A DNA stretch of 22,575 nt from a virus, in IMG/VR virus record IMGVR_UViG_3300028008_001775, positions 1 through 22,575 of that record, one strand, 5' to 3'. The notes under the pieces are model-generated. The model was given only the letters and a program-made list of their open reading frames with translations. It was not told the origin of the DNA and did not search any database. Each line of letters begins with the position of its first letter. Within the stretch, counting starts at the first letter, position 1. Below, piece by piece: positions 176-19,726 of this stretch. The translations under genes and the position numbers were made by a program.

Positions 176-844
176 ATGTACGACATTGTATTCATAAGTT
201 ATCAAGAGCCTAATGCAGATGAAAACTATGCTGCACTAAAAGCACGATTTCCTATGGCTAAACGTGTACACGGAGTTAAAGGAATACACCAAGCACACAT
301 AAAGGCAGCAAAGAAATGCTTTACTAAGATGTTTTGGATTGTAGATGCTGATGCAATAATCGTGGACGACTTTAACTTTGATTATATTGTCCCTGATCAC
401 CAGTTAGATCATGTACATGTATGGAGAGCAAAGAATCCTATTAATGGATTAGAATATGGTTATGGAGGAGTAAAGTTATTTCCTCGCAAACTTACAATAG
501 GAATGGATACAACTAAACCAGATATGACTACAAGCATAAGCGAACATTTTATTGCTGTAGATAAAGTTGCAAATATTACAAAATTTAACACAAGTCCATT
601 TGAAACATGGAAAGGTGCATTTAGAGAATGTGCTAAACTAAGCAGTAAGACAATTACGAGACAAAACAATGAAGAAACCGAAAGTAGACTTGAAACATGG
701 TGTACAAAAGGCTCTGAGGAACACTATGGTAGCTACGCTCTTAATGGCGCTAATGCTGGCAGGAAGTTTGGGATTTCTAATAGGAGCAATATTGATCTTA
801 TAAATGATTTTGATTGGCTAAGGGAACAGTTTGATGCAGAATAG
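176..844 (+). CDS. Glycosyltransferase-like protein with a DxD motif
   Basis: A 222-residue protein. It opens with a short strand (YDIVFISYQEP) and has the segment FWIVDADAIIVDDF at about residues 53-66. A hydrophobic strand ending in D-x-D is the metal and nucleotide-sugar binding signature of GT-A glycosyltransferases, and the N-terminus fits a Rossmann-like half. The predicted job is sugar transfer to a phage or host acceptor. It follows the truncated gene by 2 bases and overlaps the next gene (an rSAM) by 11 bases, so it is part of the same transcript. GGA lies 5 bases before the ATG. I see no membrane segment. The fold call rests on one motif and could be wrong; proteins of this kind in marine phages are often left as hypothetical. 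Confidence 0.5.
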   Translation: MYDIVFISYQEPNADENYAALKARFPMAKRVHGVKGIHQAHIKAAKKCFTKMFWIVDADAIIVDDFNFDYIVPDHQLDHVHVWRAKNPINGLEYGYGGVKLFPRKLTIGMDTTKPDMTTSISEHFIAVDKVANITKFNTSPFETWKGAFRECAKLSSKTITRQNNEETESRLETWCTKGSEEHYGSYALNGANAGRKFGISNRSNIDLINDFDWLREQFDAE

Positions 845-1820
845 TTACGACAAAATACCATGGACTGATATAACTAATTTTGGACAGCAAACCATGCTTA
901 AGAGCCATCTTTTTACAGTCTCATGGATATTGGCTAGATTTTGTAATTATTCATGCAGTTATTGCTGGCCATACGCTAGATCTAGTACCCCGGATCACCA
1001 AGATTTAGAAATTTACTTAAAGGCCTTAGATAGTATCAAAGCACAAGCTCGTGCAAACGAGTTTACAGACTTTCATTTTAGCTTCTCAGGAGGCGAACCT
1101 ACAGCGTATAAGTACTTTGGGGAGATCATAGATCATTACTGTAGTGATACAGCACCCGATTACCAAAGTATCCACATGACGACCAATCTTAGCCCGGGAA
1201 GCAAATGGTGGAACAAATGGTTAGAAAGTACTAAGACTCTGCACCGCAGAAGTATAACAGCAAGTTACCATGCAGAATTTGCAAATGAACAGGAGTTTGG
1301 AGATAAATGTCTCCAATTAATAGACAATGAAACATTCGTTACAATTAATCAAGTTATGGTTCCGGAACAGTTTGACGAACTTTACCAACGGCTTGAACGA
1401 TTTGCCACCAGAGGTATTAATGTTACTCTCAAGCCAATGTCCGATCCAACCGCCAGTTACGTGGTACACGGATATACAGAAGACCAAATCGCAAAAATGC
1501 GACAAGGATTTCCACAAAAGTGGAACGGCGAGCAAATAGCACAAATTGCACTATATGATAGTAAAGGTACAAAATACGAATTAGATCAAGCAGAACGTTT
1601 CAATGCATTTGGATTCAATAAGTTTCATGGATGGGAATGTAATGCAGGATATCAAGGATGCGTTATTCGAGAGAATGAAGTTAAACGGAGCTATAGTTGC
1701 CATGATGCTCCTTTAGGCACGTTAGACGGAGGATTTGAGCTGTTTAAAGCACCACAAGAGTGTATAACCTATAGTTGTGTAAGCAGTGCAGATAGTAAGA
1801 TACCAAAGAGAAAAGTATGA
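834..1820 (+). CDS. Radical SAM enzyme with C-terminal cysteine-rich domain
   Basis: A 328-residue protein. The CX3CX2C motif that binds the SAM-cleaving 4Fe-4S cluster is at C37, C41 and C44 (CNYSCSYC). The GGEP motif that contacts the SAM amino group is at 86-89 (FSGGEPT). The C-terminal part has C269, C276, C289, C310 and C315, a spacing that suggests one auxiliary cluster of the SPASM/twitch kind. The segment GWECNAG around 267 recurs in two other rSAM proteins of this window (10703-11674 and 11652-12563). The ATG at 834 is preferred to a TTG at 831 because AGGGA lies 8 bases upstream. The gene overlaps the glycosyltransferase-like gene by 11 bases and the methyltransferase-like gene by 4. 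Such enzymes modify peptides or small molecules by hydrogen abstraction; the substrate is unknown. Confidence 0.85.
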   Translation: MQNSYDKIPWTDITNFGQQTMLKSHLFTVSWILARFCNYSCSYCWPYARSSTPDHQDLEIYLKALDSIKAQARANEFTDFHFSFSGGEPTAYKYFGEIIDHYCSDTAPDYQSIHMTTNLSPGSKWWNKWLESTKTLHRRSITASYHAEFANEQEFGDKCLQLIDNETFVTINQVMVPEQFDELYQRLERFATRGINVTLKPMSDPTASYVVHGYTEDQIAKMRQGFPQKWNGEQIAQIALYDSKGTKYELDQAERFNAFGFNKFHGWECNAGYQGCVIRENEVKRSYSCHDAPLGTLDGGFELFKAPQECITYSCVSSADSKIPKRKV

Positions 1821-2419
1821 AAGTTGATATACAAGATGTACTATTCTGGATGGACGCAATTCGTAACAGCGATAACAAATATCGCACACTTGAAAGTTTT
1901 TGGAAAGGCCAAATAAACAGCAAAGTTTGGTTAGCAAAAGAATTGTACAGTATAATACCTAAGACAAAACTAAATGATATAGTTATATACGGTGGTTGGA
2001 ACGGAGTGCTGGCAAGTATATTGTTTAACAGTCGCTTACCGTTAAACAGCATTACAAGCGTGGACATAGATCCTGTGTGCAAAGATATTGCTTGTACAGT
2101 AAACAGACGATATGAAATAGAAAGAAAGTTTAATGCTGTAACAGCAGATATGTGCAAGTATACCCAACCTGCTGATGTTGTTATTAACACAAGTTGCGAA
2201 CACATTACTCAAGAACAATATGAACAATGGTTATCTAATCAACCAGACGATGCATTATTTGTAGTGCAGAGTAATAACTATTTTGAATTAGAAGAGCATG
2301 TACGATGTGCAACAGACTTAAATAACTTTATGCATATGAGTAAAATTAAGCCGCTATGGAGAGGTATATATGATACTCCTAAGTACACACGTTACATGAT
2401 AATAGGTAAAAAGAAATGA
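1817..2419 (+). CDS. Class I SAM-dependent methyltransferase-like protein
   Basis: A 200-residue protein. The central part fits a Rossmann-fold methyltransferase: a strand into a glycine-rich loop (IVIYGGWNGVLAS, about 55-67), a second strand ending in acidic residues (SVDIDP, 81-86), a D at 111 after VTA, and NTSCEHI at 124-130 in the motif IV region. The glycine loop YGGWNG departs from the usual GxGxG, so SAM binding is likely but not certain. It lies between two rSAM genes with 4-base ATGA overlaps on both sides, which argues for translational coupling and a shared pathway. The substrate is unknown; the size suits a small-molecule or protein methyltransferase. The N-terminal 50 residues are probably helical substrate-side elements. 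Confidence 0.6.
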   Translation: MKVDIQDVLFWMDAIRNSDNKYRTLESFWKGQINSKVWLAKELYSIIPKTKLNDIVIYGGWNGVLASILFNSRLPLNSITSVDIDPVCKDIACTVNRRYEIERKFNAVTADMCKYTQPADVVINTSCEHITQEQYEQWLSNQPDDALFVVQSNNYFELEEHVRCATDLNNFMHMSKIKPLWRGIYDTPKYTRYMIIGKKK

Positions 2420-3273
2420 AGCCTACCTTAAAATATTCAGAATTAAATATTACAAATGTATGTAACTATAGTTGTACACATTGCCAAAGTTTTAATAATT
2501 ATAACTTTAAAGGTCATCAGCGTTGGGACGACTATAAAGATGAATACGAACTATTAAGTAAACAAATTGACATTGACGTAATACAAATTATCGGCGGAGA
2601 ACCTACACTTAATCCTGATTTTTACAAATGGCTCGAAGGTATATCTAATTTATGGCCAAAGTCTCAGTTGCAAATTTCTACTAACGGAACGGCTCTTCGT
2701 AAAATAACAGATGATGTTTATAACATTTTAGCAAGGAACAATGGTACACTTTGGATAACATGCCATGATATAAAACTATATGATAGTTTTTTAGAATTTA
2801 GTAAAACGTTCCTTGATGTAATTGTATCCGATACCGGCGAAGCACCTGCTCGCAAAGTGTCTAGAATATTTGTTGACAAAAACGGTGTTGAAGTAATACT
2901 TGATTGGACGCAAACATTTAGATCTAGTGCTGTAGATTTAATAGACAATAAGTTAACAATGAAGTACGATAGTGATCCAGTTGATGCACATGAAATTTGT
3001 GGATTTAAATCTTGTCATCAAATGAATAAAGGCAAATTATACAAATGTCCATTAGTAAGTGTACTACCAGACTTTTTAGATCAATTTAATGTTGCAGTCT
3101 CAGATAAAGAACTGGCTCATTCATACAAGCCGATGTCACACAATGATGATGTTGAGAAATTTGTAAACGATTTAGTTAATCATATACCGCAATGTAAGTT
3201 TTGTCCTAGTAATTATAACGAAGCTCATGATTTTGTAGGTACAGATAAAAAAATTAAAGTACATTTATTATGA
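2416..3273 (+). CDS. Radical SAM enzyme
   Basis: A compact 285-residue rSAM protein. CX3CX2C is at C16, C20 and C23 (CNYSCTHC), GGEPT at 60-64 and STNGT at 88-92, all in the order expected for the partial TIM barrel. The C-terminal third carries C195, C200, C211, C260 and C263 (ending CKFCP), consistent with an auxiliary iron-sulfur cluster. It lacks the GWxCN segment found in three other rSAM proteins here, so it is a separate subfamily. The start overlaps the methyltransferase-like stop by 4 bases, and its own stop overlaps the next small gene by 4. The substrate is unknown. A peptide or a small metabolite are both possible. Confidence 0.85.
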   Translation: MKPTLKYSELNITNVCNYSCTHCQSFNNYNFKGHQRWDDYKDEYELLSKQIDIDVIQIIGGEPTLNPDFYKWLEGISNLWPKSQLQISTNGTALRKITDDVYNILARNNGTLWITCHDIKLYDSFLEFSKTFLDVIVSDTGEAPARKVSRIFVDKNGVEVILDWTQTFRSSAVDLIDNKLTMKYDSDPVDAHEICGFKSCHQMNKGKLYKCPLVSVLPDFLDQFNVAVSDKELAHSYKPMSHNDDVEKFVNDLVNHIPQCKFCPSNYNEAHDFVGTDKKIKVHLL

Positions 3274-3524
3274 TTAGTTTACAAGAAGCTTGGATTTTAG
3301 TAGAAGAATTAAATGACCAGGCTAATCAGCAAACTAGTTGGAAAGACATTGAACAAGCCATTTTAAATCAATCTGAGTATTTTAAAAATAGTATTACACA
3401 GTTAGACGATGGCAGCCGGCTTGCAATTAAATATTGGTTACAGCAAGATGACGAGTTTTACGATTATTGTAATTGTTTATCTAATAATATGATTGTGGAT
3501 CTTGTCGGCAAAGACTATGTGTGA
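3270..3524 (+). CDS. Small hypothetical protein (84 aa)
   Basis: An 84-residue acidic, soluble protein, rich in Q, N, D and E, with no signal peptide or membrane segment. The C-terminal third contains YDYCNCLSNN, two cysteines one residue apart. I do not recognise the family. It begins inside the stop of the upstream rSAM gene (ATGA), so translation is probably coupled; there is no good SD sequence. Its last 48 bases overlap the 3' end of the convergent SGNH hydrolase gene, the largest such overlap in the window. Being short and directly downstream of an rSAM gene, it could be a partner or substrate of that enzyme, but there is no recognisable leader peptide or core repeat. Confidence 0.55.
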   Translation: MISLQEAWILVEELNDQANQQTSWKDIEQAILNQSEYFKNSITQLDDGSRLAIKYWLQQDDEFYDYCNCLSNNMIVDLVGKDYV

Positions 3525-4055
3525 ACGCTCGCCAGGATGACATCTGTCATCTGCTTCGTCTATTTTTTCAAACAATCCTAATATATCTACAGTATTCCAT
3601 TCTGGAGATTTGTCTTCGTGGGTTTCTATAACGTAATTGAGACTTTTAATATTTTTATTTTGTAAATATGTATTAACATGATTTAATCTAGTGTAAAAGT
3701 CCAACAACATATCATTTCTATTACTATAATTCATATAGAACGGTTTATCTCGGTCATTCCAGGGGTTAATTCTTTGTGTTGTGTTAGACTTAATAATACA
3801 AAATCTACTATAATATGTCCAAGTAACTAAGGCAATATCACCTTCCTTAAAATCAAAATTTAAAATATCATTCCAAATTTCTTTATTACTATTACCAGAT
3901 TTTCCTAAATTTATACATTCATAATCTAACTTTTGTGCTAATAATGTAGGAAACGCTAACTTACTATAGTTAGGACCAGGATGTCCGTTATTGTCTAGAC
4001 AACCAGGTAACCCGTGCCCATACGTATAACTACATCCAAATGCAACTATTCTCAT
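3477..4055 (-). CDS. SGNH/GDSL-type hydrolase
   Basis: A 192-residue protein with the SGNH layout. Block I is GCSYTYGHG with the presumed nucleophile S9. Block II is GKSGNSN at 51-57, supplying the oxyanion Gly/Asn. Block V is D170-R-C-H173, the catalytic Asp and His. A clear GxND block III is not seen (a TWTYYSRF segment lies in that region), which is common in distant members. Likely activity: esterase, or acyl/acetyl removal or transfer on a sugar or lipid. It is the last gene of the - strand block, 1 base after the SpeD-like gene, and its 3' end overlaps the convergent small gene by 48 bases. A TATAAATA about 40 bases upstream, inside the SpeD-like gene, may give it an extra promoter. Confidence 0.75.
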   Translation of the reverse strand: MRIVAFGCSYTYGHGLPGCLDNNGHPGPNYSKLAFPTLLAQKLDYECINLGKSGNSNKEIWNDILNFDFKEGDIALVTWTYYSRFCIIKSNTTQRINPWNDRDKPFYMNYSNRNDMLLDFYTRLNHVNTYLQNKNIKSLNYVIETHEDKSPEWNTVDILGLFEKIDEADDRCHPGERSHIVFADKIHNHIIR

Positions 4056-4056
4056 G

Positions 4057-4428
4057 TTACTTAACTTCTTTCAACCCAAATTCTCTATCCAAATATTTAT
4101 ATTCTACTTTGGTAGGGTTCCATTGTTCTAGTTCTTTAAAAATAATATCTTTGTCTAGTGTACTACATGTATAAACATCGAGTTGTACAAGTGCAGGATC
4201 TACAGCGTCCCATACATGTATTGCAATGTGACTAGTTTCTATTACAATTACACCTGTTAATCCTTCGTTGCCTGGCATATCTACATATGCAGTGATAGGT
4301 CCTCTACAAACTTTCATTCCAATTTTTTCAACTAATTGTTTTAGCCAATTATGTAACCATACTTCGTCAGTTGGCGGACTCTTAACTTCTGCTCGAATAA
4401 TTAAATGTTTGTGTTCTAATACTTTCAT
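4057..4428 (-). CDS. speD: SpeD-family pyruvoyl-dependent decarboxylase (S-adenosylmethionine decarboxylase homologue)
   Basis: A 123-residue protein, the size of class 1b SpeD. The processing and active-site region is ETSHIAIH followed by DVYTC. S66 should become the pyruvoyl group after self-cleavage, H71 matches the processing histidine and C88 the catalytic cysteine. Two differences from the bacterial and archaeal class 1b sequences I remember: Thr replaces Glu just before the serine, and the region between H71 and C88 is two residues longer and lacks the W-P-E-x-G-Y-A stretch thought to hold the SAM ribose. The substrate may therefore be SAM, or another amino acid such as arginine or ornithine, as described for some SpeD homologues. 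It overlaps the amidinotransferase stop by 4 bases, which points to joint amine/guanidine metabolism. Confidence 0.85.
   Translation of the reverse strand: MKVLEHKHLIIRAEVKSPPTDEVWLHNWLKQLVEKIGMKVCRGPITAYVDMPGNEGLTGVIVIETSHIAIHVWDAVDPALVQLDVYTCSTLDKDIIFKELEQWNPTKVEYKYLDREFGLKEVK
4094..4101 (-). promoter_or_regulatory. Internal TATAAATA, possible late promoter for the SGNH hydrolase gene
   Basis: An exact TATAAATA on the - strand inside the SpeD-like coding region, about 40 bases before the ATG at 4055. It encodes part of EYKYLD, so the match may be due to codon choice. If active, it would express the SGNH hydrolase apart from the rest of the block. Confidence 0.25.
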
Positions 4429-5507
4429 ATAATGGTTCTTTTATTGCCTCGTCTTTTAGTATCTAGTGTGCCGCAGTGAATGCCTCCTTCCCAAAATAAC
4501 ATATGTCTTTGATCAACAGTGTGACAATCAATACCGTGTGTTTTTAAAAATTTAAATAAGTCTGGTAATTCGCGCCCGAATATTATATTGTTTCGATCTA
4601 CAATTAATACATTAAGATCAAAACAGCAGTCTTGATTGTAACCTGTCCAATTACCTAAATAATTTTCAACCCAGTCTAATTCATATCTGCCGCCCTTTGC
4701 AATAAAGTTTGTTTTGTATTCCTTTGTTTTTGGCGAAGGAATAAATTCTTTAGCGTCAATTAATTTTAAATGTCGTAGTGCTTGAGGAACCCAGTTTATA
4801 CCAGCATGTAAAACTGTTTCGTCGTCGATCATAATAAACCCGTGATCAATATGACCATAGTTTTCGGCGTGTCCGCCTACGTTTTTTATAAATTCAAATT
4901 CGGGTAGATTACGTTTAAGCCATTCGTATCCTTTTTTACTGCCGGGACCGTCACTGTCTATGATAATTTTATCACCTACTGGAAACATAGTTGCTGTATG
5001 AAATAATACTCTGTCATTTAATTTACTATAGTAAATATTAGTTCCAGGATCTTGTCCTGGCATATACCATATATCGCTCGGTGTAACAGGAACTAACGGT
5101 GGCGCCGCTTGACTAATCCAATTATACCCTTGGTCAAACATATCTGAAAATATATTATAGTAACTTAGACCGTCAAAGTATCTATCAGTTAAACTAGTGT
5201 ATGTTTGCACAATAGTTTTACCTGCTACTTTGTACTGATCTCTAGGAACTGTTGGCCCCATTGGAAACTTTACATCAAACCCTGGCATTGCAATATGTCC
5301 ATCATAATGATGTACATCTGGTCTTTTAACTGTGACTCCGCCTGCTTTTAAGAAGTCTGCTAATTTGTCAAAGTCTTCTTTTGTTTCATCTAGTATTTGA
5401 TTAAACTGTGACAAGTTCTCATCTGGAAATAAATGATCTAAGTCACCGCCTGCATACGAGTCTGCAACAATAACTTCTTCTAGTGGGTCGTATTCTGTGT
5501 AAACCAT
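4425..5507 (-). CDS. Amidinotransferase family protein (glycine amidinotransferase-like)
   Basis: A 360-residue pentein-fold enzyme. It begins DPLEEVIVADS, typical of the family, has FPMGPTVPRDQ at 81-91, the catalytic histidine and aspartate as G-H219-I-D221, and the catalytic cysteine C345 in WEGGIHCGTLD. The overall shape matches arginine:glycine amidinotransferase and related cyanobacterial enzymes rather than agmatine deiminase. Expected chemistry: the cysteine takes the amidino group from arginine, releasing ornithine, and passes it to an amine. The ATG at 5507 has a strong SD, GAGGAG, at suitable spacing, and the gene starts 28 bases inside the 3' end of the aminotransferase gene. The acceptor is not known; a product of the neighbouring aminotransferase or decarboxylase is a reasonable guess. 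Confidence 0.85.
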   Translation of the reverse strand: MVYTEYDPLEEVIVADSYAGGDLDHLFPDENLSQFNQILDETKEDFDKLADFLKAGGVTVKRPDVHHYDGHIAMPGFDVKFPMGPTVPRDQYKVAGKTIVQTYTSLTDRYFDGLSYYNIFSDMFDQGYNWISQAAPPLVPVTPSDIWYMPGQDPGTNIYYSKLNDRVLFHTATMFPVGDKIIIDSDGPGSKKGYEWLKRNLPEFEFIKNVGGHAENYGHIDHGFIMIDDETVLHAGINWVPQALRHLKLIDAKEFIPSPKTKEYKTNFIAKGGRYELDWVENYLGNWTGYNQDCCFDLNVLIVDRNNIIFGRELPDLFKFLKTHGIDCHTVDQRHMLFWEGGIHCGTLDTKRRGNKRTII

Positions 5508-6631
5508 TGTAGGTTCTCCTCTAATGCTTCGAAGTATTCGTCATCTGCAGCTATTGGAACAACATAAAAATGTTTCTCTAACCAAGAGTCGTGTTGCTTT
5601 CTAATTTTATAATGTAATCCGAATCTATTAAATACTGTGTAACCGGCATCTTCAAATATTTTTGTAGCACGTTCTACTATACTATCATGATTTTCTAATA
5701 ACTTATCGCGTTCTAAAATTTCTAAATATTTTACAGCAGATGCAACTCCTGGCAAACTAAAACAATATGTGAAACCGTGTTCCCAATTAAAGTTCTTAGG
5801 TAATGCATCTCTAATTTTATCATTAAACAGCACCATACTTAGCGGAAAAAATCCTCCAGTAATTGCTTTACCCATTGTTGAAATATCAGGACGTATGTTC
5901 ATATTTTCCCAACCAAGATAAGTTCCAGATTTGCCACCACCCATAAAGATATCATCAATAATTATTATTACATCGTGTTTTTTTCTTATTTCATCTAAAC
6001 TTGCCCAAAACTCTGCACTAGGAGGAGTCATGTCGCCGCCGTATGCACATGTTTCGATAACTATTGCTGCTACTGAATCCCAATCAACTTCGCCAAACTT
6101 ACTAGTATCTCTAGGTATTCGTTTCACTGAAGGATTAGGGTCTAGGGTATAAAATGGATCATCCATAAAATTATCATGTCCGATACTTCCAGTAAGATTT
6201 GTACTACCGTGGTAACTATCCAAAAAACCTACAATAGTTTTTTTGTGGTAATTTTCCTTTTGGAACTGGTATGCACATGCAAGTTTAACTGCTCCTTCAT
6301 TAGCATCAGATCCACTAAGAGCATAAAAAGAATTCATTCCTGAAATTTCACGTACTCTGTCAGCAAGCTGAAAGCTAAGATGATTTAATCTCAAAGTATC
6401 AGTTTTAGGCATAAAATGTTCGCCTATTTCTGGTTTGTTATACTTCATAGTGTTGTATACATAATCAATAATTTCTTGGTTATGATATCCTAATACATAA
6501 CATCCGTATTGTAAAATTGGATCAACAACTTTTCTTCCGTCTCGTACTTCACCAAATTTCCAATATGGCAACGGAAGTTCTAATTCCATATTGTCTGGTT
6601 GTACTTCTGGTAATAATCCGGTGTATTTCAT
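5480..6631 (-). CDS. Class III (omega) PLP-dependent aminotransferase
   Basis: A 383-residue fold-type I aminotransferase. GSDANE at 107-112 binds the PLP phosphate, SYHG at 139-142 stacks on the cofactor, D226 in IIIDDIFMGGG contacts the pyridine nitrogen, and K255 in TMGKAITGG forms the Schiff base. Class III members act on omega-amino groups of amino acids, diamines or polyamines, or as glutamate-1-semialdehyde type mutases. The start at 6631 is preferred to an in-frame start at 6670 because it follows the upstream stop by 1 base and has GAGGA 5 bases before the ATG; the longer form would add 13 residues overlapping the upstream gene. It is upstream of the amidinotransferase and SpeD-like genes, so a pathway through an amine or a guanidino compound is likely. 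Confidence 0.88.
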   Translation of the reverse strand: MKYTGLLPEVQPDNMELELPLPYWKFGEVRDGRKVVDPILQYGCYVLGYHNQEIIDYVYNTMKYNKPEIGEHFMPKTDTLRLNHLSFQLADRVREISGMNSFYALSGSDANEGAVKLACAYQFQKENYHKKTIVGFLDSYHGSTNLTGSIGHDNFMDDPFYTLDPNPSVKRIPRDTSKFGEVDWDSVAAIVIETCAYGGDMTPPSAEFWASLDEIRKKHDVIIIIDDIFMGGGKSGTYLGWENMNIRPDISTMGKAITGGFFPLSMVLFNDKIRDALPKNFNWEHGFTYCFSLPGVASAVKYLEILERDKLLENHDSIVERATKIFEDAGYTVFNRFGLHYKIRKQHDSWLEKHFYVVPIAADDEYFEALEENLQWFTQNTTH

Positions 6632-6632
6632 T

Positions 6633-7250
6633 TTAGTCCTCAATGTAATCTTTAAATATTTCCAATCCACGTTGGAAAGTTAATGGTTTTTTATTTTCTA
6701 AAAGTGTAAAACATAATGTCCAACGATGTTCAACAGGCGAAGGGTTCCATGTAGAATGTAATTGACTAATGTTAAGTAAACTAGGACGATCAATAACAAC
6801 TTCGTGTACTAAATCAGCATCATTATGATCTGCAAATAATACATACTCTATATCTATATCAGGTTTAATACCTGCTTTGTAAAATTTTTGATTAGCGTCT
6901 GCTTCGTCTAAGTAATGTTTTTTTATTTTAGAGTCGTCTTTAATCTTATACCACTGGGTTGTGCTATCCGGTGACCCCCATGTAAAGTTTAATTTACAGC
7001 AATCATTATCACCAGGCATAGAAGATGTGTCTGAATGTAAAGGAACTCTTCCGCCGTTTGGAGGTGTATAAAATCCTTCTAATACATTTGATATAGTTAG
7101 ACCGACACTTTCTATCCATTCTCTAAAAGGAGGATGAATGTATTTGTCTTCTATTAGTGCCGTATAATTTTTTGAACCTTCGTTAAAAATTTCTGGTTTA
7201 GGATATTCAAACGGTACGCTTACATAGCGGTGGTATATATTGTCTGTCAT
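6633..7250 (-). CDS. 2OG-Fe(II) oxygenase-like protein
   Basis: A 205-residue protein with the iron-binding H-x-D at H72 and D74 (VPLHSDTSS) and a distal histidine at H165 followed by R176 (SQLHSTWNPS, then EHRWTLCF), the Arg being the expected 2-oxoglutarate anchor. This is the double-stranded beta-helix arrangement of Asp/Asn hydroxylase or prolyl-hydroxylase-like enzymes. The predicted reaction is hydroxylation or oxidative tailoring of an unknown substrate, with 2OG and oxygen consumed. It overlaps the upstream CPFA-motif gene by 4 bases and precedes the aminotransferase by 1. A strong AAGGAG lies 11 bases before the ATG, at the long end of useful spacing. Confidence 0.7.
   Translation of the reverse strand: MTDNIYHRYVSVPFEYPKPEIFNEGSKNYTALIEDKYIHPPFREWIESVGLTISNVLEGFYTPPNGGRVPLHSDTSSMPGDNDCCKLNFTWGSPDSTTQWYKIKDDSKIKKHYLDEADANQKFYKAGIKPDIDIEYVLFADHNDADLVHEVVIDRPSLLNISQLHSTWNPSPVEHRWTLCFTLLENKKPLTFQRGLEIFKDYIED
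6637..6641 (-). promoter_or_regulatory. Ribosome binding site fixing the aminotransferase start
   Basis: GAGGA on the - strand, 5 bases before the ATG at 6631. It decides the start in favour of the shorter frame, which begins MKYTG. Confidence 0.75.
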
Positions 7251-12563: not shown

Positions 12564-13821
12564 ATGGAGTAAACTCTGGATTAGCTGCAAGAAAGTCTTG
12601 TCCACGAGTTTTGTCTAAACGCTTGTTAAACTCTATACAGTCTTGCCAGTGCGTTTCGTACATACATTTTGCTTCTAAGAAATTAATATTATCTTGTATT
12701 TGTTGTAGTGTTACAGTTTCTAATAGCTTGTGTTGCTTTACTAAAGGATATTCTAATACTTCTGTTTTCATTTTTTCTAAACGTGCTATTACTTTTTGTT
12801 TTAGTTTTGGAGGCAATACTTGCGCACTTAAACTCATAGGATAGTTTACTCTATGCGAATAAAACACAATGCCCATTTTATTAATAAAGTATTCAATAAC
12901 TTTATCAATTTGCATTATATTATTTGCTTGTACAGTAAACGCACCAACTACTCTGCTTACATTAGGAAAACTTTTAAATATCTCAACGTTTTCTTCTATT
13001 TCAGTAAACTTGCCATTGCCCCTAATGTATTCATATGTGTCGTGTATGCCGTCTATACTTACGTTTACAGCGATGCTACGAAACTTAGGCCAATAGTCGT
13101 GTACAGTACGTCCGCCTTTAATACCTAGCGTAGTGCCGTTTGTAGCATACTTTAGTTCTATGTTATCACCGTACTCTGCAAGTTTGTCTAGTATTTTATA
13201 ATGATATGGATCCATTAGCGGCTCACCACCTGCAAACTCTACACGTCTAAAGAACGGTAGTAGTTTTTCAAAACTTGTCCACCAGTTGTCTGAGTTATCA
13301 AACGGACCAATATATTGCCCTGGTTTAGTTACAAGTGCATCAACAATTGGAATTAATATATTGTCTTCTTTTTTATAAAAATCTGTTACTTGATCCCAAT
13401 CTTTCCAACTTGTACTATCTAAAGGATTACACATACGACACTTCAAATTGCATAAGTTGTTTAGTTTAATTTCCATAGTAGGAAATTCAAAAGGCATACT
13501 ATAATCGTCGTCTAAAGCGTCAAGTGCATCAGGGTATAAGTTGACCCTAGCTTCGGGTATTACCCCTGCTGTATGACGCTGTCGTAAGCTCTGTACACCC
13601 TGATCTTCTAAGTCAAAACACGGTTTGCACACTACTGGACGTTCGTTATTAAGAACTTGTCTGCGTACTTCACGCATAGCATCATTATTCCACGCTTCTT
13701 CAAGAGTTTCTTTTTGTATGTAACTAATAGGCGCACTTCGACAGCATACCTTAATAGCGCCATCTTCTCTAGTAGCAAGACCTGTGAAAGGATGCATACA
13801 GAATGTACAACTTTTAGACAT
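12556..13821 (-). CDS. Twitch-domain radical SAM protein (N-terminal twitch)
   Basis: A 421-residue paralogue of the protein at 9321-10706. The N-terminal domain has CTFCMHPFTGLAT, C26-C27 in KVCC, LEEAWNND at 40-47, and C65/C68 in CKPC. The rSAM core has C124, C128 and C131 (CNLKCRMC) and FAGGEPLMDP at 196-205; SIDG marks a later barrel strand. It follows the PP-loop gene with an 8-base overlap and is followed by the GWxCN rSAM gene with another 8-base overlap. Pairing of a twitch rSAM with a GWxCN rSAM is repeated on the other strand. Substrate and product are unknown. Confidence 0.88.
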   Translation of the reverse strand: MSKSCTFCMHPFTGLATREDGAIKVCCRSAPISYIQKETLEEAWNNDAMREVRRQVLNNERPVVCKPCFDLEDQGVQSLRQRHTAGVIPEARVNLYPDALDALDDDYSMPFEFPTMEIKLNNLCNLKCRMCNPLDSTSWKDWDQVTDFYKKEDNILIPIVDALVTKPGQYIGPFDNSDNWWTSFEKLLPFFRRVEFAGGEPLMDPYHYKILDKLAEYGDNIELKYATNGTTLGIKGGRTVHDYWPKFRSIAVNVSIDGIHDTYEYIRGNGKFTEIEENVEIFKSFPNVSRVVGAFTVQANNIMQIDKVIEYFINKMGIVFYSHRVNYPMSLSAQVLPPKLKQKVIARLEKMKTEVLEYPLVKQHKLLETVTLQQIQDNINFLEAKCMYETHWQDCIEFNKRLDKTRGQDFLAANPEFTPYV

Positions 13822-14494
13822 TATCTATTCCCCATTGACGTTCCCTGCACCAAAAACATTCTCCACATTCTGGCACATGTTGTCCTGGTATATATGTAGT
13901 ATAATCCAAACCTTCAAACTCTCCTTCGCAACTTCGAGTAAGATTTAATAAGTCTACGATATCGTTTTCGTAGTATTGCCGTATGATCCAATCCTTTTTA
14001 GTATACACGAAAGGATGACAAATGTCAACTCCGTTATGTACAAAATGAGGATCTAATACACTTTCGTTACGTTCTTCCATTTCCCCAGGTATAGATATAT
14101 CAGGATTCATATTTACACCACCGTATAATGCATCTAAGTTATATTGGTGTGCAATATATTCGTTATGCGAACGTAGTATAATCCTATTACCTGATTTCAT
14201 TTTACCATATTCGTCTTTAATAAGATAATCAGTTGGCTCTTCTAATTCAGGTGGCACTAAGTTTTTATGCACTATAAAATTATTGTCAAACTTATTTCCA
14301 AGCCAGTCAATTACTCCGTCAACAACAGGGCCTTGCCATGGTCTTGTCTTCCACATGCGTATTTGGTTAGTAATATGTATATCTGTAGTTGTACTTACGT
14401 TTTTGCATATTAAATAAGCAAGTAATGCACTATCAGCACCACCGCTCAAACTTATGCCTATTCGTTTCCACTTTTGATTTAGATATATGTTCAT
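13814..14494 (-). CDS. PP-loop ATPase, QueC/asparagine-synthase-like, with C-terminal zinc site
   Basis: A 226-residue protein. The PP-loop SGGADSA is at 17-23, binding ATP for adenylation. At the C-terminus C189, C210, C213 and C216 (CGECFWC) resemble the zinc site of QueC, where the spacing from the first cysteine is shorter. QueC makes preQ0 by activating a carboxylate and adding ammonia, so an amide- or nitrile-forming ligase is possible. I do not name it queC: no QueD, QueE or FolE partner is visible, and the middle of the protein (GGVNMNPDISIPGE, HFVHNGVDICHPF) has its own pattern. It heads the - strand rSAM block. It has no SD; a GATAAGTA box lies 5 bases before the ATG. Confidence 0.72.
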   Translation of the reverse strand: MNIYLNQKWKRIGISLSGGADSALLAYLICKNVSTTTDIHITNQIRMWKTRPWQGPVVDGVIDWLGNKFDNNFIVHKNLVPPELEEPTDYLIKDEYGKMKSGNRIILRSHNEYIAHQYNLDALYGGVNMNPDISIPGEMEERNESVLDPHFVHNGVDICHPFVYTKKDWIIRQYYENDIVDLLNLTRSCEGEFEGLDYTTYIPGQHVPECGECFWCRERQWGIDNV

Positions 14495-14507: not shown

Positions 14508-14520
14508 TATTAACTACGCA

Positions 14521-14528: not shown

Positions 14529-14533
14529 CATAT

Positions 14534-15211
14534 ATGATAACACAAACTGCATACTTTGTCAATGATGATATTAAACAGCAGTTAAAGTCTGCTGATATAG
14601 ATGTTAACTTTAAGTTGCCGTTAAACGAGCCAACTGGAGATTTTTTCTACGATGCTTGGACTATCAAACAAGAATTCAAAGGTACAGTATGGGACAAATT
14701 AGTATCTACATTGCCTAGCAACATCGGCGAAGCACGTTTAATAAAACTAGACCCCGGACAAGCATATCTTTCTCATGCAGATATGGATGACAGATATCAT
14801 TTTAATATCCAAGGCGAGCGTAGCTTTGTATTATATACTGATGCTAATTTAATATATCCCCAAGTAGAATCGAGCTATTGGTCTGATATGAATGCCGGCG
14901 AACTGCATAGTGCAGTAAATACAGGAAGTATTGACAGAATACAATTAGTAGTTAGGAAATTACTTAATAAAAATATATTAATAGATCCTGTACATATATT
15001 AATGACACTAAAAGAACCAAAGCCCGATTACAGATATGTGTTTGATGAGTTTTACAGTCCTTGGCTTAATTCAGCAAACAAAAATGGAATAGTAAATAGC
15101 TTTGTATATAATACCGATTACGTTTCGTTTAATATTGAACGTAGTCATGTAGAAGAGTTTAAATTGATTAAAACTTCTTATTTTAATATAGCAGTAGAAA
15201 CATCAGTATGA
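14534..15211 (+). CDS. Aspartyl/asparaginyl beta-hydroxylase-like 2OG oxygenase with C-terminal extension
   Basis: A 225-residue protein. Residues 65-140 carry the Asp/Asn hydroxylase pattern: H81 and D83 in YLSHADMDDRYH bind iron, HFNIQGERSFVLY forms a core strand pair, H125 in NAGELHSAVNTG completes the triad, and R135 in SIDRIQLVV binds 2-oxoglutarate. Residues about 145-225 form an extra C-terminal part (PKPDYRYVFDEFYSPW and beyond) that I cannot assign. The gene is the first of a two-gene + strand block behind a perfect TATAAATA, without an SD, and its stop overlaps the next ATG by 4 bases. Substrate unknown; a protein or peptide residue or a free metabolite is possible. Confidence 0.78.
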   Translation: MITQTAYFVNDDIKQQLKSADIDVNFKLPLNEPTGDFFYDAWTIKQEFKGTVWDKLVSTLPSNIGEARLIKLDPGQAYLSHADMDDRYHFNIQGERSFVLYTDANLIYPQVESSYWSDMNAGELHSAVNTGSIDRIQLVVRKLLNKNILIDPVHILMTLKEPKPDYRYVFDEFYSPWLNSANKNGIVNSFVYNTDYVSFNIERSHVEEFKLIKTSYFNIAVETSV

Positions 15212-15780
15212 AACATTATTTAGGAAAAATATCTACAGATATATGTGATTCATTAATTGATGAATGTATACAACATACTGTGACACCGTTTACTGGTAAT
15301 AGAGATCTTGATCCCGACCATAAATTTTATCAACATCATTTAGAACAAAAACAACTAGCAGATGAGAGTGGTTACACAGATGGCGATAGTATAGAATTTT
15401 TTCATTATAAACCAGATCATCAATACAGCAATAATATTCATACAATAATAAATGATATAATTGGTGGTAACGTATTACAAAGTTTTATCAGTGAAATACG
15501 TCAGGGAAAGTGCGCACCTTGGCACTGGGATATTCCTAGTTTAGATGAAGATGTAGGCGTAGTACAAGGTTACGATCCTAACGATTTAGTAAGATGTATC
15601 TGTTTTATAGACAAACCAAAACCTGGTCAAGCGTTTATGGTTGAAGACGAATGTTTCTATATGGAACCGCAAGGCGCGATATACAAATATCCTAAGTTAG
15701 ATAGCTGGCACGCCGGATTTAACGCAGGACTTGAAACTAAGTTTCTTTTAACTTTTACAGCCTTAGTAAGTTCCACTTAG
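15208..15780 (+). CDS. 2OG-Fe(II) oxygenase-like protein
   Basis: A 190-residue protein. H106 and D108 in APWHWDIP and H168 in SWHAGFNAG give the iron triad. At the place of the 2OG-binding arginine there is K178 (GLETKFLLTF), a substitution also tolerated in some 2OG enzymes. CFIDKPKPGQAFMVED forms the strand before the loop, as in prolyl-hydroxylase-like folds. It starts in the stop of the upstream oxygenase gene (ATGA), so the two are probably made together. Its last 18 bases overlap the convergent oxygenase gene. The substrate is unknown. Confidence 0.7.
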   Translation: MKHYLGKISTDICDSLIDECIQHTVTPFTGNRDLDPDHKFYQHHLEQKQLADESGYTDGDSIEFFHYKPDHQYSNNIHTIINDIIGGNVLQSFISEIRQGKCAPWHWDIPSLDEDVGVVQGYDPNDLVRCICFIDKPKPGQAFMVEDECFYMEPQGAIYKYPKLDSWHAGFNAGLETKFLLTFTALVSST

Positions 15781-16572
15781 TTTTAATTTTTCTCTAAATG
15801 CTTCAGTAAACTTCCCGTCAATGCGCATACCGTATGTAGGCGACATTACACGATTGCCACCGTGCCAATCTTGGTCATTCCAAAACGCAGCTCTAGTGTT
15901 AATGCCGTGTTTCATCTTTTTGTCAGGATCCCATATATAAAATTGATTACGTGTATCCGGACGTATGTGTATAAATTCGTTGTTGTGCGGTTCATACTTG
16001 TCTTTAGGCCATGTGCCGTTATGTGCGCCTAAGTCTCTATGTTCAAACGGTAATCCATCTGCTTCACAGTGGAAGAACATTACTCGTCCAAAGGATTCAA
16101 ATATTTCATTATCTTTAAATCCTTGTAACCATTTCATTGTATTAGGAAAGAACTTTGACTCTTCTGTTTGTTTTTTCTCTTCAGGACGATCATCCCATTC
16201 ACCTTCTTCGTGTAAGAAATAATAGATGTAAGGGTCGTATGCTTCCATTGCCATTTTAAGATAACGTGTAATTACATTACGTTGTTTATAGTCTTTAAAG
16301 TCTGTAGGCCATATTTTCATACCTTCTACTTTAATAGGATGGTCGTCGGGTAATGCTTCAAATTCTTCCATTGCAGCATATATAGGTTTCCAATTAAGTG
16401 TGTAACTCATGTCTTTAAATTCAAAGCCCGGTTTCATCCAAGTACCTTCTTTTGCGAACCATCTTGCTTCAGCAAAGCCTCGCATAATTTCTGGCTGCAA
16501 TTGTTCAAACGTTTTCATGTCTACGTGCTGTTCCATATCTAAGTATGGTTGATTATTAATACCTTTAATCAT
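15763..16572 (-). CDS. Probable 2OG-Fe(II) oxygenase
   Basis: A 269-residue protein. The second half has FFHCEADGLPFEHRDLG, with H178 and D180 as an H-x-D, then EFIHIRPDTRNQFYIWD, then H237 in DWHGGN and R250 (R241 is an alternative) downstream. This spacing fits a 2OG oxygenase barrel with an inserted loop. The N-terminal 160 residues are mostly helical and contain a Glu/Lys-rich stretch around 121-140; their role is not clear. It is the last gene of a five-gene - strand block, overlapping the zinc-knuckle rSAM gene by 8 bases, with GAGAG before the ATG, and it meets another oxygenase gene tail to tail. Confidence is lower than for the smaller oxygenases because of its unusual length. Confidence 0.6.
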   Translation of the reverse strand: MIKGINNQPYLDMEQHVDMKTFEQLQPEIMRGFAEARWFAKEGTWMKPGFEFKDMSYTLNWKPIYAAMEEFEALPDDHPIKVEGMKIWPTDFKDYKQRNVITRYLKMAMEAYDPYIYYFLHEEGEWDDRPEEKKQTEESKFFPNTMKWLQGFKDNEIFESFGRVMFFHCEADGLPFEHRDLGAHNGTWPKDKYEPHNNEFIHIRPDTRNQFYIWDPDKKMKHGINTRAAFWNDQDWHGGNRVMSPTYGMRIDGKFTEAFREKLKLSGTY

Positions 16573-17782
16573 TTGGTGTCTCTCTATTATATAATGATAG
16601 TAAATCTAATGGTTCTTTGGTTGGATTTCTAGTAAACATATGTCGTTCGATTGGACTATCAGGAAGGGTATTGCCTTTATTTTTCCAAGCATCTCTTCTG
16701 ATAATTTGATGTAAGAAATTTGTTATACCTCCCGGTACAAAATCGCACCATGGTCCAGATCGAAGTTCTTCCATGTCGATGTCTGTTTCGTCACACCATT
16801 GAATAATTCTTATGTCTTTGCCGTCTACTTTAGCCATAACATGATATATGTTATTGTCAGCTTCTATGATTCTTTCGAATGACTTGTTATTATCGTTACA
16901 CCACTGTTCGATTGCTTTATATACATCACTAACAAATATACGAACTTGCCCAGGATTCCTTCCAATGTCTGATCCGTAACGAATCCTAAAGTTTTTACTT
17001 CGCCATTCGTTGCTACATATTTCGTTCATTATAAAATCAACTTCTTGTAGAGTCATCATAGTATAACTGATATAACTTATATGCAAACCTTCTGCATGTG
17101 CATTGTTGATAGCTTCAAGTTGTTTTCTTCTAATTACTTTGTGATCATTATAACTTGGATGATTCAACCCTATATTAACACTACTTAATCCGCTTGCAAT
17201 TGCCGACTTTACATAGTTTCTATCTGAAAACCGAATACCGTTAGTCATTACAGACACAGTAATACTAGGATCTAAAGCATTAATTTGTTCAACAAGACTA
17301 TTAAAGTCCTTACGTAAAGTTGGCTCTGCTCCGCTAAGAATAACTCGATGTATAGCGTCTTCGCCAAGGGGCCACTTTTTAATTTGTGAAATAATTTTTT
17401 CAGCTGATTGATCTGTAAGTGCATTATCAGGTTCGTGATAACAATGAGGACATGCTAAATTACATCTATCAGTTACTTCTATTAGCACTCCGCCGTTAAA
17501 GTTATATTGAGGATTATCTTGTGTATAGTATATATTACGATAAAATTCGTAATCACTTTCGATCATATGGTGACTTGTACCGTGTGTTTCACAATGTTTA
17601 GCTATGAATACTTGATTGTCTTTATGATACCGTAATGCAGGAACGTGGTAATGACAGTGGTGACATAGACTAACAGTAGGCAATAATTCAGTACCTCCTA
17701 CATCTATTATTGCAGAACGTATAGTATCAATTGCAGTCTGCGTAAATTGATTTATACCAACTATTTTAATTTGATTTAACAA
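16565..17782 (-). CDS. Radical SAM enzyme with N-terminal zinc-knuckle (MJ0619 / tetraether-synthase-like)
   Basis: A 405-residue protein. The N-terminus has CHHCHYHVPA at 40-49 and then VFIAKHCETHG at 58-68, that is C40, C43, C64 and H67. This C-x2-C ... K-x-C-x2-HG pattern is typical of the MJ0619-type rSAM family, which includes pterin methylases and archaeal tetraether lipid synthases. The rSAM core follows: C107, C111 and C114 (CNLACPHC) and SGAEPT at 150-155, then MTNG. Later cysteines (IIQWCDE, GPWCDF) may hold further clusters. It starts with TTG at 17782: no ATG occurs before the knuckle, and AAAGGA lies 8 bases upstream. It overlaps the upstream gene by 7 bases and the downstream oxygenase by 8. 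The substrate could be a lipid, pterin or other metabolite. Confidence 0.82.
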   Translation of the reverse strand: MLNQIKIVGINQFTQTAIDTIRSAIIDVGGTELLPTVSLCHHCHYHVPALRYHKDNQVFIAKHCETHGTSHHMIESDYEFYRNIYYTQDNPQYNFNGGVLIEVTDRCNLACPHCYHEPDNALTDQSAEKIISQIKKWPLGEDAIHRVILSGAEPTLRKDFNSLVEQINALDPSITVSVMTNGIRFSDRNYVKSAIASGLSSVNIGLNHPSYNDHKVIRRKQLEAINNAHAEGLHISYISYTMMTLQEVDFIMNEICSNEWRSKNFRIRYGSDIGRNPGQVRIFVSDVYKAIEQWCNDNNKSFERIIEADNNIYHVMAKVDGKDIRIIQWCDETDIDMEELRSGPWCDFVPGGITNFLHQIIRRDAWKNKGNTLPDSPIERHMFTRNPTKEPLDLLSLYNRETPND

Positions 17783-18483
17783 TTATTAGTTCCTTTATTG
17801 TATATTTGTTTTGCTGCATCTATAAAGTCGTCAGTGTAGTTTTTTCTAAAACTTTCAAAACATAAATGTTGTAATGTATTTAACGATTCTGGCTCGTCCC
17901 AACTTATGCCCATAGTCTCTATTTGTGTACGCATTATATCTTGTCTTGTACTGTATATATGACTAGCATGATCTGAAATCTTAATTGGACCTTCGCTTTC
18001 ATGATAACAGAAGAAATGGTTAAAGCTCTTTAGTTTTCCGTCTACTATAAAGTAACTGCTAGGATGCAAACTGTATTTGTATATTCCTAAGTCTCTATAT
18101 GCTTGTAATATTTCAAGCATTTGTTCTCGCCAGTCGGGCAGCACATTATCATAATTTTCTACACTACAGTTAGCACGATTCCAAAAGTCAATCCCGTCTA
18201 CTTCTAAATAAAGTTTACGGAGTTCTACGTTAATATCTTTAATTACAGGAACATATTGCGGATAATGTTTTTCCATAAGCAACGAGTATGAAACTTCTCT
18301 GTCAAATTTTTCTTGCATTAGTTTTGGATCAACTACTTGATTTTGTCCACCATGATACTTTTTATCATTGTAAAACCATTGACAAAATGTTTGAGTATCT
18401 CCGCTCATAAGACTTGTGTAAATTAAATTGTTGCGACACTTTCCTTCACCTGGAATATCGTTCCAATAGTAATTGTAATTCAT
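17776..18483 (-). CDS. Kinase-like protein lacking the catalytic Asp (possible pseudokinase)
   Basis: A 235-residue protein. The order of elements recalls a small protein-kinase or aminoglycoside-phosphotransferase fold: KFDREVSYSLLMEKHYPQYVP (59-79) like the C-helix and following strand, LYLEVDG (91-97) like the hinge, QMLEILQAYRDLGIY (121-135) like the E-helix, then YSLHPSSYFIVDGKLKSFNHFF (137-158) in place of the catalytic and metal-binding loops. In active enzymes the latter region has H-x-D-x-x-x-x-N and D-F/D-x-x; here the Asp and Asn are absent (Ser, Tyr and Asn stand there). It may be inactive, bind a partner, or use another chemistry. It overlaps the upstream oxygenase gene by 4 bases and the zinc-knuckle rSAM gene by 7. 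The fold assignment is an inference by eye. Confidence 0.45.
   Translation of the reverse strand: MNYNYYWNDIPGEGKCRNNLIYTSLMSGDTQTFCQWFYNDKKYHGGQNQVVDPKLMQEKFDREVSYSLLMEKHYPQYVPVIKDINVELRKLYLEVDGIDFWNRANCSVENYDNVLPDWREQMLEILQAYRDLGIYKYSLHPSSYFIVDGKLKSFNHFFCYHESEGPIKISDHASHIYSTRQDIMRTQIETMGISWDEPESLNTLQHLCFESFRKNYTDDFIDAAKQIYNKGTNNC
17791..17796 (-). promoter_or_regulatory. Ribosome binding site supporting a TTG start
   Basis: AAAGGA on the - strand, 8 bases before the TTG at 17782. It supports this rare start codon for the zinc-knuckle rSAM gene, which has no ATG before its first conserved cysteines. Confidence 0.6.
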
Positions 18484-19124
18484 ATATATAATGCCTTGTC
18501 TTTGTATTTTTCTAAACTGCGATTAATTAATGCAGCGTGTTTTTCGTTATCTATAATACCAGCAGTAGTTAAGATTATTTTTGGTCTATGTGTTTCTGTT
18601 GCCCCGTGCCATACATCGTTATTATTAAATGCAAAACATGGACTTTGAATATTTGGATAGTACTTTTCTCCGTTTTCTTCTTTACTAAAATAAAATGTAT
18701 TATATTTTGGATCTGTTAAATAAATTGTATAACGCCTTGGCTCCAACGGATTATGAGGATCATGCGCATCTTGATGATTTGGAATAGGTCCTAGTTGATA
18801 AAGCATGCCACTTACAGTTAGTTGTTTAAATGGTAACTGTCTAATACAATTTGCAAGACTAGGAAACGCTTCCTCAAAACCAGGATGAAAAAATACTCCT
18901 TCGTTTACTCCATCGGTTCTGCGATTGTCCCACATTTCTTTATCAAATCTACGCCAGTCTTTAGGTTCCTTACAAGTTGAAGTCATTGCCCATGCATGGC
19001 GATTAGATGTTAATTCCCAATAGTCGTCGTCTAATAATTTATGATCTTCAAACCATTTTAGTATTAATTCTTCATCGGGCCATTCTACGTCAATGTCTAT
19101 AGGTAAGTATGCTAGGTGTTTCAT
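18480..19124 (-). CDS. 2OG-Fe(II) oxygenase-like (Asp/Asn hydroxylase type)
   Basis: A 214-residue protein. H117 and D119 in IPNHQDAHD, strands PRRYTIYLTD and NTFYFSKEE, and H173 in DVWHGATETH form the iron site; R180 or K182 in HRPKIILTTAG would hold 2-oxoglutarate. The N-terminal 100 residues include LTSNRHAWAMTST and a Trp-rich stretch that may recognise the substrate. A strong AAGGA 5 bases before the ATG supports the start. It overlaps the oxygenase gene upstream and the kinase-like gene downstream by 4 bases each, so it is the second gene of a coupled five-gene block. The substrate is unknown. Confidence 0.72.
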   Translation of the reverse strand: MKHLAYLPIDIDVEWPDEELILKWFEDHKLLDDDYWELTSNRHAWAMTSTCKEPKDWRRFDKEMWDNRRTDGVNEGVFFHPGFEEAFPSLANCIRQLPFKQLTVSGMLYQLGPIPNHQDAHDPHNPLEPRRYTIYLTDPKYNTFYFSKEENGEKYYPNIQSPCFAFNNNDVWHGATETHRPKIILTTAGIIDNEKHAALINRSLEKYKDKALYI

Positions 19125-19726
19125 ATAGTTCCTTCCAAAGATAATAACTCATTAAGATTATCTTGTTTTAATCTAAAAATAATAGTAACTCTATCTTCAT
19201 TACTAGAATTAAATGTATGATGAGATTTTGTAGTATCTAACAAGTAAGCACTACCGTCTGCAACTAGTTCATATTCCTTGTCAAATGTTATTGCAGGCCC
19301 ACTAGTGTAAATAGGTAACCAAACAGTATATTCGTCATCAGCATCAGTATGCTCGCTAACCTTTCCACCAGTTGGCTGTACACTTACACTCCAACGATAT
19401 CCAAACGGTATCTTATCTTGTAAACGGCTAATTATGCCAAACGCTAATTCTGTATTTCGATATTCTACAGTTTCGTGTGTACTAATATTCCAAGGCGGAC
19501 ACGGTAATGTAATATCTTTTAAATTACTCTGTATAGCCCATCCGTGTGTTAGTAAGTTAGCAGGATCCTCATAAGCAGCATCTCGCCATTGTTTAACAAT
19601 GTCATTGCCGCACTTTTCCCAACTCCAATCTAAATGTTGATAATCTGTATTTAATTTATCATAATACTGTCGTAGTTCGGTAATGTTTAATTTAAAATTT
19701 AATTGTGTTACAATACTATTCAACAT
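19121..19726 (-). CDS. 2OG-Fe(II) oxygenase-like (Asp/Asn hydroxylase type)
   Basis: A 201-residue protein. H126 and D128 in VSEHTDADDEY, YTVWLPIYTSGPAITF as core strands, H169 or H170 in TKSHHTFNSS, and R179 in EDRVTIIFRL give the complete triad and 2OG anchor of an Asp/Asn beta-hydroxylase-like enzyme. The ATG at 19726 is chosen over an in-frame TTG at 19732 because AAGGAG sits 6 bases before the ATG and touches the TTG. It heads the five-gene - strand block, and its stop overlaps the next ATG by 4 bases. Unlike the other block-leading genes it has a true SD and room for a leader. Confidence 0.75.
   Translation of the reverse strand: MLNSIVTQLNFKLNITELRQYYDKLNTDYQHLDWSWEKCGNDIVKQWRDAAYEDPANLLTHGWAIQSNLKDITLPCPPWNISTHETVEYRNTELAFGIISRLQDKIPFGYRWSVSVQPTGGKVSEHTDADDEYTVWLPIYTSGPAITFDKEYELVADGSAYLLDTTKSHHTFNSSNEDRVTIIFRLKQDNLNELLSLEGTI

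Follow-up and report, generated by a model that had tools for sequence, protein, structure and literature searches.

Gene content of the island

The stretch of DNA analysed here, hereafter the window, is the whole 22,575-nt IMG/VR record IMGVR_UViG_3300028008_001775, which is itself a fragment of a viral genome. It carries a dense island of genes for radical S-adenosylmethionine (rSAM) enzymes and 2-oxoglutarate (2OG)-Fe(II) oxygenases. The window is 98.6% coding. Short operons of coupled genes are found on both strands, and 145 bases in the interval 176-22573 are covered by no gene. An earlier note, made from the sequence alone, had described a phage-like island with eight rSAM enzymes and seven probable 2OG oxygenases and had read it as a biosynthetic or modification system. 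Comparison with related loci, described below, shows that the core of this island is a QueC-like ligase, two N-terminal-twitch (N-twitch) and three other rSAMs, a methyltransferase-like protein, a 2OG hydroxylase and a GT-A glycosyltransferase.

All eight rSAM genes scored above the curated PF04055 cut-off with CX3CX2C intact, and the earlier division into seven proteins with GGEP or SGAEP and one with GNFGDP agrees with the translations. The core members are rSAM1 (834-1820, + strand, PF04055 43 bits), rSAM3 (8254-9321, +, 33 bits), which carries GNFGDP, rSAM4 (9321-10706, +), rSAM6 (11652-12605, -, 48 bits) and rSAM7 (12556-13821, -). Outside the core lie rSAM2 (2416-3273, +) and rSAM5 (10703-11674, +), each with 49 bits against PF04055, and rSAM8 (16565-17782, -). 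The N-twitch class comprises rSAM4 and rSAM7, which reached 380 and 326 bits against NF033640 (N_Twi_rSAM, cut-off 170 bits); the auxiliary (N-terminal) and core cluster cysteines of both are invariant among paralogues. Across the homologues of the main rSAM families, CX3CX2C was kept in 163/163, 81/81, 67/67, 51/53, 58/58 and 17/17 sequences. The HMPTM/Tes-like rSAM8 (PF04055 69 bits, PF23545 41 bits) has the N-terminal HMPTM zinc ribbon, and tetraether synthase is its nearest match in the PDB (3e-14).

A core in conserved order among relatives

We scanned IMG/VR with rSAM7 and found 283 stretches encoding relatives, the best 80 of which were compared. Since this sample was chosen through rSAM7, co-occurrence is conditional on rSAM7 and is not an overall frequency, and gene-order counts are limited to loci with sufficient flank. 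The rSAM6 gene lies 3' of rSAM7 in 80/80 loci, rSAM4 follows in 53/53, and the hydroxylase gene OG3 is at most 8 kb away in 40/40. The PP-loop ligase gene is present in 63 of 68 loci, in 49 of them immediately upstream. The methyltransferase-like gene, rSAM1 and rSAM3 occur together in 43/53 loci, 38 of which also contain the glycosyltransferase-like gene g01. Loci of at least 20 kb hold a median of eight rSAM and five 2OG genes. The earlier note had named two outcomes that would speak against its claim, mostly false enzyme calls or genes that never occur together in related phages. Neither was seen, as in these 80 loci the genes do co-occur and keep their order.

The blocks flanking the core are freely exchanged between loci. 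The amidinotransferase block of the window is one such exchangeable insert, present in a small number of loci; close relatives (L016, L017, L020, L022, L038) have a tryptophan-halogenase-family gene at that place (PF04820, 5e-93). Nucleoside diphosphate (NDP)-sugar epimerases or dehydrogenases are encoded in 23 of the 80 loci.

The QueC-like, methyltransferase-like and glycosyltransferase-like proteins of the core

The protein encoded at 13814-14494 (-), which contains SGGADS and C-x20-CxxCxxC, had been called PP-loop ligase-like, and its fold bears this out. An AlphaFold2 model (predicted local distance difference test, pLDDT, 90) matched QueC best (3e-7), followed by NcsA and Cap9 (8e-6). 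When aligned to true QueC, the protein keeps SGGxDS and CxxCxxC but not YxQxHxxE, VPxRN or YPDC, the motifs tied to preQ0 synthesis (PMC13329287), and it thus departs from the canonical QueC signature (YxQxHxxE, VPxRN, YPDC, C(x)8CxxCxxC). A match of YPDC to NPD made by eye was dropped after this alignment. On the strength of the fold matches and the QueC alignment, we read the protein as a putative ATP-dependent carboxylate-activating ligase that has the QueC fold but is not classed as QueC.

The product of g03 (1817-2419, +) resembles a class-I SAM-methyltransferase by motif. The earlier call of a methyltransferase-like protein holds to that extent; the protein has no Pfam match, and its best PDB match is a methyltransferase at E 0.37. 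The gene is kept in 72 loci with GGWNG and NTSCEH invariant, and its nearest match in a named phage is annotated 'putative methyltransferase'. The predicted structure of g01 (176-844, +; AlphaFold2 pLDDT 90.8) matched GT-A glycosyltransferases in Foldseek with E about 1e-4; the DxD-type residues D57/D59 are invariant, and the gene comes after rSAM1/rSAM3 in relatives. Searches by tblastn against 50,697 GenBank phage records gave no match for the PP-loop protein, g01 or the protein-kinase-like protein described below, and blastn of the first 8 kb of the window against GenBank phages also gave none.

2OG oxygenases and accessory genes

The H-x-D...H...R/K triad is kept in all seven proteins that had been called 2OG oxygenases, but family and profile support for them is uneven: strong for OG2, OG3, OG4 and OG6 and moderate for OG5. 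Profile comparison matched the core enzyme OG3 (14534-15211, +) to beta-hydroxylases of solved structure (E 5e-14) and to L-proline cis-4-hydroxylase (E 1e-3), and H81/D83/H125/R135 are invariant in the homologue alignment. OG2 (7677-8183, -) and OG4 (15208-15780, +) are mutually related (E 1e-24), and OG2 is also related to the OG3 family (E 3e-6). OG6 (19121-19732, -) scored 26.8 bits against PF05118 (Asp_Arg_Hydrox), above the cut-off; a distant relative (L026) without the triad His is an exception among the aligned homologues. OG5 (18480-19124, -) matched at E 9e-5. The candidate OG1 (6633-7250, -; H72/D74/H165/R176 invariant in five aligned rows) and the candidate 269-residue protein at 15763-16572 (-; HRD/H237/R250 invariant) have the conserved HxD..H..R motif with a weak profile relation or none.

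Three further enzymes named in the earlier note were identified as it had proposed: a pyruvoyl-type S-adenosylmethionine decarboxylase-like protein (SpeD; 4057-4428, -; PF02675 1.7e-13), an amidinotransferase with a GGIHC motif (4425-5507, -) nearest to HsvA (9e-24) and StrB1 (2e-18) in PDB profile searches, with AGAT and SxtG also matched, and a class-III pyridoxal phosphate-dependent aminotransferase (5480-6670, -; PF00202 1.6e-43). The remaining genes of the window are an 84-residue open reading frame (ORF) coupled to rSAM2 (3270-3524, +) that has no homologue in the 80 loci, an SGNH/GDSL-like hydrolase (3477-4055, -) scoring slightly below the Pfam cut-off, a DUF6875-like protein (7247-7684, -), a protein with a protein-kinase-like fold (17776-18483, -; profile match to kinases 2e-5) and a 206-residue protein with no assigned function (19765-20385, +). 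A fatty acid desaturase gene (20382-21152, +; PF00487 6e-21) and a sulfotransferase-like gene (21152-21757, +) adjoin the island and are kept in the closest relatives only. A tRNA search of the window found none.

Genome context, probable optionality and selection

The window, being a fragment, contains no gp23 capsid gene, and its sole phage-type ORF is the tail-fibre-like one at 21761-22573 (-), which marks the island border and resembles ORF 22 of genome G001, likewise at an island border. The description as phage-like was nevertheless right, judged by two long relatives of 160 and 169 kb that encode gp23 (PF07068) and contain 15 rSAM matches each. In both, the island adjoins fibre-like ORFs and lies between tail-fibre genes. 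The 169-kb contig also carries genes for an HldE-like protein, a haloacid dehalogenase (HAD) phosphatase, an epimerase, an NDP-sugar dehydrogenase and a carbamoyltransferase. The 160-kb relative has a second rSAM island (G002:C1:112630-122655; L107-L108) of nine CX3CX2C ORFs, six of them in tandem directly after tail-fibre ORFs and some scoring under the Pfam cut-off.

Zero to four rSAM matches were found on ten contigs whose capsid proteins are 83-94% identical, three of them 132, 176 and 186 kb long. The island is therefore probably optional, although fragments cannot prove its absence from relatives. Of the genes tested, rSAM7 is the most constrained. In a comparison of the two long contigs its protein is 88% identical, against 83% for the capsid protein, and ranks second in conservation among 69 reciprocal pairs. 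Recent transfer as the cause of this high identity was rejected because the synonymous sites of rSAM7 are near saturation (synonymous substitutions per site, dS, about 1.6), and none of the 14 genes that allowed an estimate has a lower ratio of nonsynonymous to synonymous substitution (dN/dS) than its 0.055. Such a low ratio at near-saturated sites indicates that rSAM7 has a maintained function and a constant substrate.

Some related contigs had been binned with Rickettsiales, Gammaproteobacteria or Thermoplasmata. We rejected a host assignment from these bins, since the contigs look like misbinned phage; gp23 and an N_Twi rSAM array on one contig were shown for G022:C3 only (108 kb, gammaproteobacterial bin; L170-L172). 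A 3.5-kb contig in a Thermoplasmata bin (L114) encodes rSAM4 at 70% identity and is probably phage contamination. Distant amidinotransferase and N_Twi rSAM matches were also seen in the single-cell-derived Marine virus AG-345-D19 (L112, L113).

A chromosomal counterpart in Bdellovibrionota

Part of the core also occurs in cellular genomes. The genome scan for N-twitch rSAMs used a four-sequence alignment, because a broader nine-sequence one had no sufficiently conserved stretch. Bdellovibrionota genomes G023-G026 (L173-L176, L267) have 15-33 NF033640 matches each, often in tandem arrays, and on a 936-kb contig of one genome the homologues of rSAM1, rSAM3, rSAM4, g01 and the methyltransferase-like gene are clustered. 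An rSAM1 orthologue with 47-55% identity was found in 16 of 241 Bdellovibrionota genomes. Among 14 Bdellovibrionota regions, an rSAM4 homologue is present in 12, an rSAM3-like gene in 12, g01 in six and the methyltransferase-like gene in seven; in these cassettes the rSAM4 orthologues (40-50% identity) stand side by side with those of rSAM1 (46-52%). A PP-loop relative lies near rSAM arrays in two genomes, and on one contig from this phylum a relative (24%) of the 15763-16572 protein adjoins an N_Twi rSAM. One N_Twi_rSAM array stands beside a homologue of the window amidinotransferase. In the rSAM1 tree the window-type phages are grouped (100/100), and the direction of exchange with Bdellovibrionota is not resolved. 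In the literature searched we found no description or function of these rSAM1-rSAM3-rSAM4 cassettes.

The conserved order, the purifying selection and this chromosomal counterpart support well the reading in the earlier note of a coherent biosynthetic or modification system, as opposed to a random gathering of single genes. Two points qualify it: dense rSAM islands in T4-like phages have been reported before (PMC2853527, PMC5332604, PMC7029224), and the island is probably optional.

Possible product of the island

The island is a real, conserved and probably optional biosynthetic unit. Its likeliest role is the tailoring of a glycan or sugar-conjugate, and modification of a protein or production of a free metabolite are serious competing readings. 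We tentatively favour, with a confidence somewhat short of even, a pathway that makes a tailored sugar or sugar-conjugate and is encoded in the host-recognition region of a group of marine, uncultivated T4-like phages. We infer its substrate, order of steps, target and purpose as follows. The core would build and attach one unusual tailored sugar or sugar-conjugate, to which swappable blocks (amidinotransferase with aminotransferase and SpeD, halogenase, extra 2OG and rSAM enzymes, NDP-sugar enzymes) would add phage-specific decorations. An NDP-sugar or uronate would be supplied by NDP-sugar enzymes of host or phage; rSAM enzymes would rearrange, epimerise, dehydrogenate or C-methylate the sugar; the QueC-like enzyme would activate a carboxylate with ATP and couple it to an amine; and 2OG enzymes would hydroxylate the product. 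Glycosyltransferases might then transfer it to the host surface polysaccharide or, less likely, to a virion fibre, and the changed receptor could shut out other phages or allow escape from host defences. The enzyme families, the fixed order around rSAM7, the selection on that gene and the position beside fibre-like ORFs in the two gp23-bearing contigs speak for this pathway. A link to sugars is seen in the 23 loci with NDP-sugar genes, in the 169-kb relative and in the phages K566, CP220 and Mosig discussed below. Several points weigh against this pathway. The window has no NDP-sugar biosynthesis gene, g01 matches glycosyltransferases by fold only (TM score about 0.4), and Cap9, a protein modifier, is among the closest relatives of the QueC fold. 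Moreover, SPASM/twitch rSAMs and AspH- or proline-type hydroxylases frequently act on peptides, a strongly conserved core is at odds with a fast-diversifying O-antigen system, and we found no substrate or product for any N_Twi_rSAM. It is also conceivable, though unlikely, that T4-like phages and Bdellovibrionota share an undescribed pathway in which N-twitch rSAMs and a divergent QueC-type ligase would make conjugates of a new class, formed on protein or on glycan, with which phages would remodel the host surface or counter defences.

The twitch rSAMs, the AspH- or proline-type hydroxylases and the QueC-like ligase could instead modify a phage or host protein after translation, for example a tail fibre, with sugars added later. 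Fibre genes border the island, OG3 is similar to beta- and proline hydroxylases, the nearest PDB matches of the QueC-like fold include Cap9, an enzyme that modifies a protein N terminus, and the zinc motif spacing of the PP-loop protein is nearer that of published QatC than that of canonical QueC. However, the few uncovered bases leave no room for a precursor peptide, the 84-residue product, the sole small ORF, was not found in relatives, no PqqD-like recognition protein was recognised, and large variable fibres are unlikely to have one modified motif in common. We consider such a role rather unlikely, and a cluster for a ribosomally synthesised and post-translationally modified peptide (RiPP) was rejected, as there is neither intergenic precursor room nor a conserved small ORF. 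With a similarly low probability, the island may make a diffusible small molecule during infection, such as an antibiotic, a signal, or a siderophore-like or protective metabolite. A set of tailoring enzymes so dense and so mixed suits this role, as do the tryptophan-halogenase-family gene of close relatives and the amidinotransferase, aminotransferase and SpeD genes, and PMC7824862 makes a similar proposal for a cyanophage cluster. Against it, we recognised no nonribosomal peptide synthetase, polyketide synthase, obvious scaffold synthase or exporter in the window or among the tested ORFs of the 169-kb relative, and glycosyltransferases and NDP-sugar genes recur instead.

A collection of unrelated cargo genes for general auxiliary metabolism, accumulated in a hypervariable region, would account for the free swapping of flanking blocks and for the absence or reduction of the island in some relatives with near-identical capsid proteins. 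We regard this as improbable in view of the fixed core order, the strong purifying selection and the Bdellovibrionota counterpart. Hypermodification of phage DNA or RNA, with the QueC-like protein in a deazaguanine route, is very improbable. It is suggested by the QueC fold and by QueE-like rSAMs that lie outside the island in both long relatives (L093:3375-4331, L102:2645-3652) and score under curated cut-offs, no QueD gene being found with them. The motifs YxQxHxxE, VPxRN and YPDC are not kept, though, a QueD-type 6-pyruvoyltetrahydropterin synthase (PTPS) gene was found in 0/9 relatives, the QueC Pfam cut-off was reached in 1/9, and no transglycosylase was recognised. Canonical QueC/deazaguanine DNA modification was rejected on the motifs and the missing QueD.

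Whichever chemistry applies, the island provides a delimited group of genes from which the products of N-twitch rSAMs could be learned. In one conserved, strongly selected cassette, part of which is also found on bacterial chromosomes, several rSAMs with no assigned function are combined with a ligase, a hydroxylase and a glycosyltransferase. The island also bears on the question of why multi-rSAM modules sit near fibre or glycosyltransferase genes in unrelated T4-like phages whose hosts are Campylobacter, Pelagibacter, Vibrio or uncultivated marine organisms. If surface glycans are tailored, the chemistry would be unusually elaborate for phage-driven receptor change.

Comparison with known systems

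The PP-loop protein shares with QatC and Cap9 the fold, the SGGxDS loop and the CxxCxxC zinc motif (PMC13329287, PMC13279940), and its C-x20-CxxCxxC is closer to the QatC spacing (C-x19/20-C) than to that of canonical QueC. Cap9 joins deazaguanine to a protein N terminus (PMC13279940). The window protein differs in having neither the QatC extensions nor the substrate residues of canonical QueC and Cap9, and it is linked to rSAMs rather than to a defence operon. The Bdellovibrionota cassettes resemble the window in combining rSAM1, rSAM3 and rSAM4, often accompanied by members of its glycosyltransferase and methyltransferase families, and differ in being cellular.

Among marine phages, TARA_ERS488813_N000010 is a T4-like genome for which 12 rSAM genes were counted in an Fe-S context (PMC5332604); likened by description and not by sequence, it perhaps belongs to the same group as the window phages. 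A cyanophage cluster of the S-SSM6a type contains carbamoyltransferase, halogenase, 2OG and methylase genes, interpreted in PMC7824862 as serving polysaccharide decoration or a secondary metabolite; that paper does not use the term 'radical SAM', and its passage on the cluster mentions no QueC-like ligase. Like the island in the two long relatives, the host-recognition clusters of pelagimyophages and cyanomyophages (PMC7029224) lie between fibre and baseplate genes, and they include rSAM cassettes as well as genes for 2OG enzymes, a carbamoyltransferase and a desaturase. In Pelagibacter phage Mosig, genes for an ArnB-like sugar-aminotransferase, a carbamoyltransferase, a MoaA-like protein and a 2OG enzyme are placed between fibre and VrlC genes. 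Unlike the window, Mosig has far fewer rSAMs, and of the core proteins used as queries the methyltransferase-like one alone found a match there (28%).

The T4-like Campylobacter phages CP220 and CPt10 have 11-12 rSAM genes (PMC2853527; NC_027997). They infect a gut bacterium, no 2OG-rich set is annotated within the stretch examined, the N-twitch rSAMs of the window found no match in them, and the PP-loop protein found none in GenBank phages. In CP220, five rSAMs, an amidinotransferase and two genes with sugar-transferase domains form a module reported as swappable, with kinds of genes like those of the window; the window amidinotransferase is 26% identical over 98% to that of the CP220-type module, and rSAM1 is 22% identical to its match in CP21. 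In Vibrio phage K566, GT8 genes are interleaved with N-twitch rSAMs. The parallels with CP220, K566 and Mosig indicate sugars in more cases than peptides, and they are the main reason for favouring a tailored glycan as the product of the island.

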